Shown piece by piece: positions 9,904 to 18,450 of a DNA stretch of 39,871 nucleotides. This stretch comes from Ferrithrix thermotolerans DSM 19514 (lineage in GTDB: Bacteria > Actinomycetota > Acidimicrobiia > Acidimicrobiales > CAIXPF01). Made by a program: the position numbers and the translations under genes. The stretch is taken from positions 1-39,871 of the forward strand of contig CAMDQT010000029.1 of NCBI GenBank assembly GCA_945906305.1, written 5' to 3'. A model generated the notes under the pieces. The model was given only the letters and a program-made list of their open reading frames with translations. It was not told where the DNA came from and made no database searches. Each line of letters starts with the position of its first letter. Within the stretch, counting starts at the first letter, position 1.

Positions 9904-11892
9904 ATGACCACGTTTACCAACGCCTCCACCAGCCCGCGCCGTGCCCGCAGTCAGACCCGGGCCACCACGGCCTATGAGCGGCTCAGCACCCCACTCGTGC
10001 GTGAGCGCGGGGCCCTGCGCCCCGCCAGCTGGGACGAGGCCCTCGATCGGGCCGCCCAGGGTTTCCAGACCGTCATCGACCGGCTCGGCCCCGATGCGGT
10101 CGGCCTGTTCTCGTGCTCCAAAGCCACCAACGAGATGAACTACATCGCGCAGAAATTCATGCGCGTGGCGGTGGGGACGAACAACATCGATTCTTGCAAC
10201 CGCACTTGACACGCCCCATCCGTCGCCGGTCTGGCGACAGTGTTCGGCGCCGGTGGAGGCACCTCCTCCTATCAGGAGGTCGTGGAATCCGACCTGATCG
10301 TCATGTGGGGCTCCAACGCCCGCAACGCGCACCCGATCTTCTTCCAGCACGTGCTGCGCGCCGTGCGACGCAACGCCAAGCTCTACGTGGTGGACCCACG
10401 GCGCACCGAGACCGCTCAGTGGGCCGACCTGTGGCTGGGCCCGGAGGTCGGCACCGACATCGCACTGGCGAACACCATGGCCCGCGTCATCATCGAGCAG
10501 GACCTCGTCCACCACGAGTTCATCGAACGGGCCACGGTCGGCTTCGACACCTTTGCCGCCTCGGTGGCGGCCTGGACCCTCGAACGCGGCGAAGCAGTCA
10601 CCGGCGTACCGGCCTGGGCCATCGAGGAAATGGCCGTGGCCTATGCCCGGGCCGACCGAGCACAGATGTGTTGGACCCTGGGCATCACCGAACATCACAA
10701 CGGCACCGACAACGTGCTGGCCTTGATCAACCTGGCGTTGTTGTGTGGCCACGTCGGACGGTACGGCGCGGGGCTCAACCCGCTTCGGGGCCAAAACAAC
10801 GTGCAGGGCGGTGGTGACATGGGAGCCATTCCCAACCGGCTGCCCGGCTTCCAGGACATGGCCGATGCCGAGGTCCAGCAGCGTTTCACCGCCGCCTGGA
10901 ACCACCCGATACGCGCTCAGCACGGCCTGCATCTAGCCCAGATGTTCGAGGCGATGGACGAAGGCGGCCTCAAGGCGCTCTACGTGATCGGCGAAAACCC
11001 AGCCCAGTCCGAAGCCAACACCGCGCAGGCCGTGCAGCGCCTGGGCCGACTCGACCACCTGGTGGTTCAAGACATCGTTCTCACCCGCACTGCGGCCTTG
11101 GCCGATGTGGTGCTGCCCGCTACCGCCGCCTGGTGCGAAACCGAGGGGACTGTCACCAACAGCGAGCGCCGGGTACAGCGGGTGCGCCAGGCGGTCCAGC
11201 CGCCCGCGGGAGCCCGCGATGACATCGCCATCATCGCGGCCGTGTCGGAGCGACTTGGTCGATCACTCGGCGCCACCGACAGCGAAGCGGTTTGGAACGA
11301 GGTGCGGGCCTTGTCGCCCATGCACCGCGGCATGTCCTATGAACGACTCGAAGCACTCGGCGGCATCCAATGGCCCTGCTACCACGAAGATCGCCTGGAG
11401 CCATCCTTCCTGCACGGTCGGCTGTGGGCCACCGATCCGACCGAACGCGGCGCCAGAGCACCGTTCAGTATCGTGCAGGACGAATCGCCGGTAGATCAGC
11501 TCACTGCCGACTTCCCGCTGCGCCTCACTACTGGGCGCCGTCTGGACTCTTACAACAGCGGGGTGCAGAGCGGCGCGTTTTTGTCGCCGTTGCGACAGGG
11601 AGAAACGATCGACCTGTCTCCTCACGATGCAGAAACACTTGGGGTCACCGAAGGTGATCTCGTCCGGGTGGTGTCGCGGCGCGGGGCCCTCGTGGCGCCG
11701 GTACGTCTTGACCGGGGTCTGCGTAGCGGGCTGGCCTTCATGACCATGCACTTCCCAGACGAAGTTGCCACCAACGACTTGACCATCGACGCGCTCGACC
11801 CCAAGTCCGGAACGGCCGAGTTCAAGGCCACCGCCATCCGTATCGAGCGCCACGACACCGACCCTCCCGCCGCGCCTGCGGTGGATAACTGA
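9904..11892 (+). CDS. fdhA: Formate dehydrogenase catalytic subunit, selenoprotein, lacking the N-terminal Fe-S domain
   Basis: Read through the in-frame TGA at 10207-10209 as selenocysteine, the gene encodes 662 residues of the molybdopterin (bis-MGD) catalytic part of formate dehydrogenase, which oxidises formate to CO2. Sec102 is followed by H103 in the context SCNRT-U-HAPSVAGL. This aligns with E. coli FdhF around Sec140-His141. The conserved arginine is R295 in NPLRGQNNVQGGGDMG. Homology starts at PLVRERGALRPASWDEAL (30-47). Unusually, the [4Fe-4S] subdomain that normally begins the protein is absent; it is encoded at 13692-14639. The ATG at 9904 has GGAGAG upstream. The frame on both sides of the TGA is intact and conserved, and a SECIS hairpin follows, so this is not a broken gene. 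Confidence 0.93.
10210..10240 (+). promoter_or_regulatory. Bacterial SECIS element
   Basis: Directly after the TGA at 10207-10209, GTCGCC (10222-10227) pairs perfectly with GGCGAC (10233-10238) around the loop GGTCT (10228-10232). The E. coli fdhF SECIS, as I remember it, has the same GGUCU loop starting after 18 bases from the UGA, and here too there are exactly 18 bases. This is the SelB-binding type of hairpin that directs selenocysteine insertion. Confidence 0.88.
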
Positions 11893-11913
11893 ACGCGACG
11901 CATCGGACATCTC

Positions 11914-13695
11914 GTGGACCTGCACTTCACCGCGAAAGACCCGACGACGGCCGAGCGCGACGCGGTGGACGACGTGCTCGGGGCACCTCTCGACCGAACC
12001 GCCGTCGATCGCGCCGCCACCGGGCAGTATCTGCGGGCCGAACGCGGCGGAGCGGCCGTCCGCCGCCAACGCCACCTGCTGTTGCCTGCGCTGTTGGCCC
12101 TTGTCGATCGGGTCGGGTGGATCAGCCCCGAAGGGCTCGACTACATCGGCCTTCGTCTCGGCGTGGCGCCGGCCGAGGTCTACGGGGTGGCCAGCTTCTA
12201 CGCCCTGTTGGCACTCGAGCCCCGCCTCACCCGTTCAGTCGTCCATGTCTGTGTCGATTTGGCCTGCCGTATGGCCGGTGGCGTCGATGAGCAGCGACAC
12301 CGCTACGAGGACTCCGACACCCTCGTGGTCGACAGCGCTTGCCTCGGCCAATGCGATCGGGCCCCAGCCGCGATGGTCACCGAACCGGGTGCCCCCGCCC
12401 GCCACCGTGTCGACGCCCGCGAGGCCACCGTCATCGCCCAATGCGGCGAGGCCAGCCTCACGCTGCTGCGTCGAGTCGACGTCATCGCCCCTACCGACCT
12501 CGATGCGTACCGCGCCCATGGCGGCTACGTGGCGTTACGCCGAGCGTTGGACATCGGCCCGGCGGCGGTGCGGGCGGAGGTCGACGCCGCAGGGTTGGTG
12601 GGCCGCGGTGGGGCCGCGTTCCCGACCGGTCGCAAATGGGCCGCGGTCGCCGCCGCGCCGGGGCAGCCCCATCATCTGGTCTGCAACGCCGATGAGTCCG
12701 AACCAGGCACCTTCAAAGACCGGGTGATCCTCGAGGGTGACCCGTTCGCCGTCATCGAGGCCATGACCATCGCTGCGTATGCCACCGGCTGCGAGCACGG
12801 CTGGATCTACCTGCGGGGCGAGTATCCCCTGGCCCGAGCGCGTCTTGAGGAGGCCATGGCGCGAGCCCGCCGCGGCGGGCTGCTCGGTCCCAACGTGATG
12901 GGCCGTGGCTTCGCGTTCGATGTCGAAGTGTTCCGCGGCGCCGGGGCTTACATTTGTGGCGAGGAAACGGCGATCTTCAACTCGATCGAGGGCTATCGCG
13001 GCGAGCCCCGAACGAAGCCGCCGTTCCCCGTGGAGGTGGGCTTATTCGGCCGCCCCACGCTGGTTAACAACGTCGAGACACTCATCAACGTGCTCCCGAT
13101 CGTCGCCGACGGAGCAGCCGAATACCGACGGCTGGGCACGGTGGGCTCCCCGGGACCAAAATTGTTCTGTCTTTCGGGATCGGTGCGCAGCCCCGGCGTG
13201 TACGAGGTCCCCTTTGGCACCACGCTGGGCGGGCTGATCGAACGAGCGGGGGGTCTAACGGAGGGCCGGACGCTCCAAGCGGTGCTGATCGGTGGCGCAG
13301 CCGGGTCCTTCGTCGGCCCCGAGCAGCTTGATTTGCCCTTGACCTTCGAAGCCACCAGAGCCGCGGGCACCACAGTCGGGTCGGGCGTCGTGATGGTCAT
13401 CGACGATCAGGCCGACCTCGTCGACCTCGTGACGCGTATCGCCGCGTTCTTCCGCGACGAGTCATGCGGACAATGTGTGCCGTGCCGGGTCGGCACGGTG
13501 CGCCAGGAAGAAGCCATCCTCCGCCTCAGCGTCGGCAAGCGCCAGCGCCACGAACGCGCTCACGACCTTGAAATACTCCACGACGTTGGCCAAACCATGC
13601 GTGATGCCTCAATCTGCGGCTTGGGCCAAACCGCGTGGAACGCCATCGAGTCGGCCCTGACGCGCTTCAAACTTTTCCCGGAGGATGCGCCGTGA
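11914..13695 (+). CDS. fdhB: NuoE-NuoF fusion, NADH/diaphorase subunit of formate dehydrogenase
   Basis: A 593-residue fusion. Residues about 20-185 are a thioredoxin-fold NuoE-like [2Fe-2S] domain with C113, C118, C143 and C147. Residues about 190-590 are NuoF-like: GRGGAAFPTGRKW (230-242) and NADESEPGTFKDR (258-270) bind NADH and FMN, and C518, C521, C524 and C568 form the [4Fe-4S] site in SCGQCVPCRVGT and ICGLGQ. It would pass electrons from formate through FMN to NAD+, or in reverse. It lies between the two halves of the formate dehydrogenase large subunit, 21 bases after the catalytic gene and overlapping the next gene by four. The GTG at 11914 has only a weak ribosome site. The fused form is known in some NAD-dependent formate dehydrogenases and hydrogenases. 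Confidence 0.93.
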   Translation: MDLHFTAKDPTTAERDAVDDVLGAPLDRTAVDRAATGQYLRAERGGAAVRRQRHLLLPALLALVDRVGWISPEGLDYIGLRLGVAPAEVYGVASFYALLALEPRLTRSVVHVCVDLACRMAGGVDEQRHRYEDSDTLVVDSACLGQCDRAPAAMVTEPGAPARHRVDAREATVIAQCGEASLTLLRRVDVIAPTDLDAYRAHGGYVALRRALDIGPAAVRAEVDAAGLVGRGGAAFPTGRKWAAVAAAPGQPHHLVCNADESEPGTFKDRVILEGDPFAVIEAMTIAAYATGCEHGWIYLRGEYPLARARLEEAMARARRGGLLGPNVMGRGFAFDVEVFRGAGAYICGEETAIFNSIEGYRGEPRTKPPFPVEVGLFGRPTLVNNVETLINVLPIVADGAAEYRRLGTVGSPGPKLFCLSGSVRSPGVYEVPFGTTLGGLIERAGGLTEGRTLQAVLIGGAAGSFVGPEQLDLPLTFEATRAAGTTVGSGVVMVIDDQADLVDLVTRIAAFFRDESCGQCVPCRVGTVRQEEAILRLSVGKRQRHERAHDLEILHDVGQTMRDASICGLGQTAWNAIESALTRFKLFPEDAP

Positions 13696-14639
13696 CCAGC
13701 CAAGGCGACGAAGCGACACCTCGAAGCGTGCAACTCAGCGTCGATGGAACCGTCGTTACCGCCACCGAGGGCGACAGCCTCCTTGCGGTGTGCCGCGGGC
13801 TTGGCGTTGAGGTTCCGACGCTGTGCTATGGCGACACCCTCACCGCCCGCAATGCCTGCCGAATTTGCGTGGTCGAACTCGACGGCAACCGCACCCTGGT
13901 TCCGGCCTGTTCCCGCCCGGCGGAGGAGGGCCAAGTCGTGCACACCGACAGCGCCCGGGTCCGAACCAGCCGCAAGGTGGTCCTGGAGCTACTCGGCTCC
14001 TCGGTAGATCTGTCCCTCACCAAGGGTGTGGAAGCCTGGAACGAACGCTACGAGGCAGACCCCAGTCGCTTTGGCCCCTCGGCTGCGCCCGCCGGGATTG
14101 GCGAACGCGACCGCCGGGTCACCGGCGAGCATCACCACGCCGACCCGCTCACCGCGGCCACCGTCGCCCAGCCAGCCAAAATCGACAACCCCTTGTACGT
14201 ACGCGACTACAGCAAGTGCATTCTGTGCTTCAAGTGCGTCGATGCCTGCGGCGAGCAGTGGCAAAACACCTTCGCCATCAGCGCCGCCGGGCGGGGTTTC
14301 GACGCCCGCATCGCAACCGAGTTCGATGTCGCTTTGACCGATTCTGCCTGTGTCTACTGCGGGAACTGCATCGCGGTGTGCCCAACCGGGGCGCTGATGT
14401 CCACCGCCGAGTTCGACCTGCGAGGCGCAGGCAACTGGGCGCCCGAGCGCCAACACGAGACCACCACTGTGTGTTCGTACTGCGGGGTGGGGTGCAATCT
14501 CACCGTGCACGTACAGGACAACGAGATCGTCAACATCTCCAGCCCCTCCGACCACGACGTCACCCACGGCAATCTCTGCATCAAGGGCCGTTTCGGCTAT
14601 GTCAACGTGCAACCACCACGCCGGCGGGTGAAGGACTGA
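13692..14639 (+). CDS. Formate dehydrogenase Fe-S subunit carrying the detached MGD [4Fe-4S] subdomain
   Basis: A 315-residue protein equal to the missing N-terminal part of the large subunit. Residues 12-100 are a NuoG-like [2Fe-2S] ferredoxin domain (C45, C56, C59, C73). Residues 170-235 hold two [4Fe-4S] motifs (C176/179/182/186 and C220/223/226/230). Residues 255-305 are the Fe4S4 subdomain that normally starts the bis-MGD domain (C261, C264, C268 and C296 in LCIKGRFGY). The His-Cys [4Fe-4S] motif usually found after the ferredoxin domain is not present; the matching stretch (VDLSLTKGVEAW) has no cysteine. The GTG at 13692 overlaps the upstream stop as GTGA and has GGAGG at 13679-13683, so the start is firm. 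It must associate with the 9904-11892 product to complete the enzyme. Confidence 0.9.
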   Translation: MTSQGDEATPRSVQLSVDGTVVTATEGDSLLAVCRGLGVEVPTLCYGDTLTARNACRICVVELDGNRTLVPACSRPAEEGQVVHTDSARVRTSRKVVLELLGSSVDLSLTKGVEAWNERYEADPSRFGPSAAPAGIGERDRRVTGEHHHADPLTAATVAQPAKIDNPLYVRDYSKCILCFKCVDACGEQWQNTFAISAAGRGFDARIATEFDVALTDSACVYCGNCIAVCPTGALMSTAEFDLRGAGNWAPERQHETTTVCSYCGVGCNLTVHVQDNEIVNISSPSDHDVTHGNLCIKGRFGYVNVQPPRRRVKD

Positions 14640-18295: not shown

Positions 18296-18364
18296 ACCAA
18301 GTGGCCTGCATCGAGGCGCCGTCCACACCCGTGGCGTCGTGCGCTCCGCCGCGGGTCGGTGGCG

Positions 18365-18450
18365 TGCCCGGAGCGGGGTTCGAACCCGCACGGCCCTTAC
18401 GGGCCGGAGGGGTTTAAGCCCTCCACGTCTGCCGATTCCGTCATCCAGGC
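18365..18450 (-). tRNA. tRNA-Leu, anticodon UAA
   Basis: On the minus strand, GCCTGGA (5' end at 18450) pairs with TCCGGGC to form the acceptor stem, with A as discriminator at 18365. The D-stem is ACG/CGT and the anticodon stem is GAGGG/CCCTC around the loop CTTAAAC, giving anticodon TAA. A long variable arm (CGGCCC-GTAA-GGGCCG) marks it as a class II tRNA. The T arm is GCGGG-TTCGAAC-CCCGC. The length is 86 bases and the 3' CCA is not encoded. The anticodon identifies leucine. Confidence 0.96.

Follow-up and report, generated by a model that had tools for sequence, protein, structure and literature searches.

In the present work we describe a formate dehydrogenase locus in a stretch of 39,871 nucleotides from Ferrithrix thermotolerans DSM 19514 (assembly GCA_945906305.1, contig CAMDQT010000029.1; the whole stretch is called the window below). 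Three genes on the same strand form a tight operon (Table 1), which encodes a catalytic chain (CAT), a NuoE-NuoF fusion (EF) and an electron-transfer chain (N) that carries at its C-terminal end the Fe4S4 domain (FES) belonging to the catalytic module. We consider it very likely that the three genes specify one cytoplasmic, selenium-dependent formate dehydrogenase linked to nicotinamide adenine dinucleotide (NAD), the catalytic module of which is built in trans. The enzyme is probably chimeric: it would descend from two lineages of formate dehydrogenase through reciprocal domain loss, with the proximal cluster lent across a subunit interface. The gene order, with the catalytic part followed by the NuoEF fusion and the N-terminal part, had been proposed in an initial annotation together with the close spacing of the genes, and both are borne out by profile matches and coordinates, with a gap of 21 bases between CAT and EF and an overlap of 4 bases (GTGA, 13692-13695) between EF and N.

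The alpha subunit is divided between CAT and N at position 49 of TIGR01591, an equivalog model of formate dehydrogenase alpha with a curated cut-off of 666.25 bits for the full-length subunit. Residues 22-647 of CAT match model positions 49-672, and residues 259-307 of N match positions 1-49. Each chain alone scores below the cut-off (637.1 bits for CAT and 48.2 bits for N), and when the Fe4S4 piece and CAT are joined in silico, the product covers model positions 1-672 and passes it with 699 bits. In line with this, the Molybdop_Fe4S4 domain (PF04879) is found in N alone, at residues 255-303 of 315, and CAT consists of the Molybdopterin and Molydop_binding domains. The initial annotation had let the catalytic reading frame start where the CxxCxxxC...CxKG subdomain should end, and had placed that subdomain at the end of the 13692-14639 product behind a ferredoxin and two [4Fe-4S] motifs; the profile matches (PF13510 and PF12838 for the ferredoxin and the two motifs) agree with this description. 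No hidden Fe4S4 domain was found 5' of CAT, since the upstream open frame often closes within a few codons of the CAT start, and the N-terminal Fe4S4 domain that FdhF-type catalytic chains carry themselves is absent from CAT. The Fe4S4 and catalytic domains are thus not on one polypeptide here, while the fused relatives compared have both in cis. The complete domain set of a formate dehydrogenase is present once the products of CAT and N are taken together, and a NuoE- and NuoF-like diaphorase is encoded alongside in EF. The best fold match of the single-chain model of CAT was the alpha subunit of formate dehydrogenase 1 of Methylorubrum extorquens AM1 (MeFDH1), residues 341-981 (Z 44.3, r.m.s.d. 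2.5, 609 residues aligned), and N corresponds by sequence to residues 66-344 of the same subunit, so the two products tile MeFDH1 alpha almost end to end. Position 102 (selenocysteine or cysteine), His103 and Arg295 are all invariant in the CAT alignment. Arg295 is the equivalent of FdhF Arg333, judging by a pairwise alignment to PDB 1aa6 and by what is known of FdhF.

CAT is one reading frame only if the TGA at codon 102 is read through, and we regard this in-frame UGA as almost certainly a selenocysteine (Sec) codon on the basis of sequence comparison. In 61 catalytic genes extracted from relatives for comparison of the codon and of the selenocysteine insertion sequence (SECIS), the equivalent codon is TGA in 41 and cysteine in 20. 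As the SECIS loop, GGTCT occurs at +22 to +26 in 40 of the 41 TGA copies, the window included, and in none of the 20 Cys copies; Gly-Leu is encoded at this site in TGA and Cys copies alike, yet the loop occurs only with TGA. Genes for tRNA-Sec, SelA and SelB are present in the genome; none of the sel genes tested was found near tRNA-Sec, and selA and selB lie 11-14 kb further on. An Rfam scan of the window returned no SECIS or other RNA, and the fold of a 54-base segment was not significant (z -1.6), and the local hairpin and the comparison of Sec with Cys copies were used instead. The features expected of a selenoprotein, namely an in-frame UGA at a Cys/Sec position, a SECIS and the Sec machinery, are all found.

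In the N chain, the four FES cysteines (261, 264, 268 and 296) and Lys298 are kept in 80 of 81 copies, and the other twelve cluster cysteines likewise. The ligands of the His-Cys cluster, which we take to be A5, occur in 0-1% of the 81 split copies versus about 90% of 21 fused alpha subunits. In the window and in all split relatives these ligands are replaced by an SSVDLS-type stretch, which resembles that of fused alpha subunits of Chloroflexota (L199-L205). The split N comes in two lengths, and the short form (L121-L125, L129-L133, L187-L193 and others) lacks about 25-30 residues just after the region of the absent A5. Over its whole length the N model aligns with a 352-residue chain of Euglena complex I (PDB 8iuf_1A; Z 16.2); the NuoG-type N-terminal part is also a separate short chain there.

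The proposed enzyme would work as follows. CAT would bind a molybdenum (or tungsten) bis-molybdopterin guanine dinucleotide (bis-MGD) cofactor, and would use its residues Sec102, His103 and Arg295 to oxidise formate. FES, at the C-terminal end of N, would dock at the place on CAT that in FdhF, or in a fused alpha subunit, is taken by the N-terminal domain, so that the cofactor would have Lys298 and the A1 cluster as its neighbours. From A1 the electrons would pass through two more [4Fe-4S] clusters and the [2Fe-2S] cluster in N to the [4Fe-4S] cluster and flavin mononucleotide (FMN) of EF, and finally to NAD+, a predicted acceptor suggested by the homology of EF. The step from molybdenum to A1, normally within one chain, would become an interchain step. 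Lys44 of FdhF is required for cluster binding and activity (PMC12176258), and Lys298 would, by analogy, act across the subunit interface.

Several known enzymes share parts of this arrangement. MeFDH1 (PDB 7vw6 and 8j83) has a beta subunit with FMN and the clusters B1 and B2, like the NuoE-NuoF fusion here, and its alpha subunit has the [4Fe-4S] clusters A1-A3 and the [2Fe-2S] cluster A4 but no A5 (PMC10869683), an absence it shares with the split N. MeFDH1 differs in that it is a tungsten enzyme with the Fe4S4 and catalytic parts of alpha in cis on one chain, and its type of catalytic part lies on another tree branch than the split CAT. Its electron path runs from tungsten over A1, A2, A3, A4 and B1 to FMN; in the present proteins the same path would start from a molybdenum site in CAT, run through A1-A4 of N and end with the last cluster and FMN, both carried by EF. 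The NAD-linked FdsABG of Rhodobacter capsulatus (PDB 6tg9) has a counterpart of N in residues 24-301 of FdsA and of CAT in residues 303-932, but FdsA is one chain with an A5 cluster, and the NuoE- and NuoF-like subunits are separate. FdhF-type enzymes (E. coli FDH-H and our family f25, L232-L246) share the catalytic domain and the Sec-UGA with CAT, whereas they have their own N-terminal Fe4S4 domain, and the f25 genes have no N or EF genes adjacent. The A5-less fused alpha subunits of Chloroflexota (L199-L203, L205) share with the split N a VDLS-type stretch where the A5 ligands would be, but they are one chain and have a catalytic domain of a different branch. No NuoE or NuoF gene was seen within about 3-5 kb on either side of the fused A5-less FdhA in L199-L203, and in L201 a gene for an aldehyde ferredoxin oxidoreductase adjoins it.

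The closest published record is FDH3 of Actinomycetospora chiangmaiensis DSM 45062, with the accessions WP_084681743, WP_018332443 and WP_018332444, which consists of FdhA3, FdhB3 and FdhC3 of 640, 614 and 316 residues, has Sec in the alpha chain and is called cytoplasmic and NAD+-dependent in the main text of PMC7176365. By subunit size and assigned roles it is very probably the same type of enzyme. In the proteome the three proteins are found at comparable levels (0.012, 0.022 and 0.017%) and rise jointly on induction (3.1, 2.8 and 2.2 fold, respectively), and formate removal by the strain needs selenium while tungsten is without effect. The strain also has two membrane-bound Sec enzymes, and the selenium effect is therefore no proof for FDH3 alone. 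The main text of the paper makes no mention of an Fe4S4 domain in the 316-residue chain, and in the open-licence literature no description of a separate-chain Fe4S4 domain or of a hybrid origin was found, PMC7176365 being the only close record.

The locus is not confined to Ferrithrix. A scan of genome contigs with N gave 80 loci, to which seven from Chloroflexota genomes were added, and the order CAT, EF, N on one strand was found in 73 of the 73 loci that hold all three genes. The loci are found within Actinomycetota in Acidimicrobiia, Thermoleophilia, Nocardiopsis, Streptomonospora, Saccharopolyspora, Lentzea, Amycolatopsis, Herbidospora, Nonomuraea and others, and outside this phylum in Acidobacteriota, Chloroflexota and single metagenome-assembled genomes (MAGs) labelled Planctomycetota, Spirochaetota and Eremiobacterota. 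Because the order is the same throughout, cultured isolates and one complete chromosome (Streptomonospora nanhaiensis, L037) included, the layout is not a product of chance or assembly error. In 296 genomes of Actinomycetota, CAT was found with at least 58% identity in 33, N with at least 50% in 34 and both in 31; in the five genomes with a single part the contigs are too short for both. N with at least 55% identity was present in 25 of 251 Chloroflexota genomes. Nonsynonymous (dN) and synonymous (dS) divergence between the window and its nearest relatives was 0.126-0.129 and 0.72-0.74 for CAT, 0.114-0.115 and 0.76-0.77 for N, and 0.08-0.09 and 0.68-0.81 for FES, respectively, and all three are under strong purifying selection. 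In Actinoallomurus iriomotensis (L052:2117-8882) two tandem catalytic genes, one with Sec and one with Cys, precede a single EF and a single N. The two CATs stand at different places in the CAT tree; this looks like a swap of catalytic chains in nature and suggests that the catalytic chain is an exchangeable cartridge.

The ancestry of the two halves was examined in trees. A first joint tree of N and CAT hid the discordance described here because the FdhF-type enzymes of Actinomycetota (family f25) were not yet sampled, and it was replaced by trees including them. The f25 enzymes have FES and CAT in one chain, with N and EF not nearby and FdhD beside one of them, and the fused relatives have N, FES and CAT in one frame, usually after NuoE/NuoF genes. 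The split CAT is sister to f25 with support 100. The split N, in contrast, groups (support 100/99) with the A5-less fused alpha subunits of Chloroflexota, whose catalytic parts belong with the MeFDH1 type, for which M. radiotolerans (L164) stands in the tree. When the split CAT was forced together with the A5-less fused alphas, the tree was 196 log-likelihood units worse and was rejected by the approximately unbiased test (p-AU 4.6e-10), and forcing the A5-less alphas with the MeFDH1 type in the N tree gave p-AU 9e-4; the constrained groups were picked after inspection of the trees, which makes these p-values optimistic, though the likelihood gap is large. FES sides with N, with a mean identity of 53% to the A5-less fused alphas versus 44% to f25. 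The trees of the two halves thus disagree strongly, which points to descent from different formate dehydrogenases. In the proposed history an FdhF-type catalytic gene would have been placed upstream of an operon of EF and alpha, after which CAT would have lost its own Fe4S4 domain and the alpha subunit its catalytic domain. Such a hybrid history accounts for the position of CAT: the usual order of NuoEF followed by the alpha N-terminus is kept, and the catalytic gene is the newcomer upstream. The exchange may also have gone in the opposite direction, the fused enzymes of Chloroflexota having exchanged their catalytic part.

The initial annotation had spoken of a split and reordered subunit, which implies one ancestral FdhA gene cut in the linker between the Fe4S4 and catalytic parts, with the pieces permuted; duplication of the operon and loss of the outer copies would be one way to this. 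The canonical order of EF followed by N-FES-CAT is indeed a cyclic permutation of CAT, EF, N-FES, and the split copies form one clade in the joint trees. With different sister groups for the two halves, the rejected constraint on CAT, and no N or EF remnants upstream of CAT or CAT remnants downstream of N, we regard this course of events, including permutation by duplication, as unlikely. The other part of that interpretation, a working enzyme acting in trans rather than decay, is supported; it had covered neither the in-frame UGA nor the absent A5. One could also see in the genes the leftovers of a decayed enzyme, or suppose that N works with another partner, for example in a diaphorase with EF, and that CAT functions without an Fe4S4 domain; the domain not being in cis and the few draft genomes with one part only could be cited for this. 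Such a reading is extremely improbable in view of the retained FES cysteines and Lys298, the purifying selection extending to FES, the constant co-occurrence and order of the genes, the tiling of one alpha subunit by sequence and fold, and a protein set of the same sizes detected in culture (PMC7176365, main text). A full-length FdhA elsewhere, next to which the present genes could be mere remnants, was looked for as well, and no other formate dehydrogenase alpha was found in the genome, which is 97.9% complete. Among the candidates considered, one oxidoreductase lacks the Fe4S4 domain, and the other PF04879 genes of the genome were judged from their sequences to encode NuoG and a NasC-type enzyme, the latter next to a sumT-type gene.

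A three-chain enzyme of the described build with a substrate other than formate, in some other CO2- or carboxylate-linked reaction of the dimethyl sulfoxide (DMSO) reductase superfamily, is conceivable, as sequence cannot give the substrate with certainty. We find this highly unlikely, since the joined halves pass the cut-off of a formate dehydrogenase equivalog, the Sec-His and Arg motifs are kept, FdhD adjoins N in L019, L052, L055 and L092, formate-tetrahydrofolate ligase adjoins L043, and selenium-dependent formate removal is described in the main text of PMC7176365 for the strain that expresses the same-sized set. FdhD is also encoded in the Ferrithrix genome (C7:19288). Some points weigh against the trans-built hybrid enzyme that we favour. 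The structure models are of single chains, with a mean predicted local distance difference test score (pLDDT) of 75.0 for N and 79.7 for CAT, and the N model is of low confidence in parts, above all in the ferredoxin region. The match to the Actinomycetospora enzyme is one of subunit sizes and assigned roles, not of sequence, and the trees do not fix whether the split clade or the fused enzymes of Chloroflexota swapped the catalytic half.

The known formate dehydrogenases of this comparison have the metal site and the first Fe-S cluster that follows it on one chain. A natural enzyme with the cluster domain on a chain of different descent makes the step from molybdenum to the cluster separable, so that one could produce the catalytic chain free of Fe-S clusters, swap the cluster chain, and test in trans what the bridging lysine does. 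No Sec machinery would be needed to express the Cys versions from cultured Nocardiopsis, Saccharopolyspora and Lentzea. Our data also suggest that automatic annotation may miss split enzymes, because each half falls below the family cut-off and the catalytic gene of Sec copies is broken at the UGA.

Table 1. Features of the split formate dehydrogenase operon in the window.
Feature	Position	Strand	Basis
CAT, putative Mo/W-bis-MGD catalytic chain, 662 residues; formate dehydrogenase alpha without Fe4S4 domain	9904-11892	+	TIGR01591 49-672; PF00384 and PF01568 only; fold match
In-frame TGA, predicted selenocysteine U102, followed by His103	10207-10209	+	tRNA-Sec, selA and selB in genome
Predicted SECIS hairpin, loop GGTCT at +22 to +26, register as in E. 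coli fdhF	10222-10238	+	Sec versus Cys comparison, local fold
Arg295, RGQNN motif	10786-10788	+	Invariant in CAT alignment
EF, NuoE-NuoF fusion, diaphorase chain: 2Fe-2S thioredoxin-like, FMN/NAD domain, SLBB, 4Fe-4S	11914-13695	+	Profile matches
N, electron-transfer chain, 315 residues, with C-terminal Fe4S4 domain of the catalytic module	13692-14639	+	TIGR01591, Pfam
[2Fe-2S] ferredoxin domain of N, Cys45, 56, 59 and 73	13722-13952	+	PF13510, residues 11-87; Cys kept in 80/81
Expected site of His-Cys (A5 / NuoG N5-type) cluster in N, ligands absent	14001-14141	+	81 copies versus 21 fused alphas
Two [4Fe-4S] ferredoxin motifs of N, Cys176-186 and Cys220-230	14214-14393	+	PF12838; kept in 80/81
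FES, Molybdop_Fe4S4 domain in trans, Cys261, 264, 268 and 296	14454-14600	+	PF04879, E 1.2e-18; Cys kept in 80/81
Lys298 of CxKG, equivalent of FdhF Lys44 (between cluster and Mo cofactor)	14583-14585	+	Kept in 80/81

Matches to plasmid records were also considered and set aside; among the matches listed all were below 60% identity and, where annotated, were whole alpha subunits. In L028, L031, L032, L036, L038 and L040 about 2 kb lie between CAT and EF. In L028, L038 and L040 this gap holds two unrelated genes on the opposite strand, which by eye encode a zinc-type alcohol dehydrogenase and a phytanoyl-CoA-dioxygenase-like protein. With opposite-strand genes in between, as in some Acidimicrobiaceae, CAT must be transcribed apart from EF. 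In a Spirochaetaceae MAG the gene of a nickel pincer cofactor-dependent isomerase (group 22; L064:2775-4034) ends just 5' of the split operon. Downstream of the operon in the window, a tRNA-Leu (taa) gene is found on the minus strand at 18364-18450.

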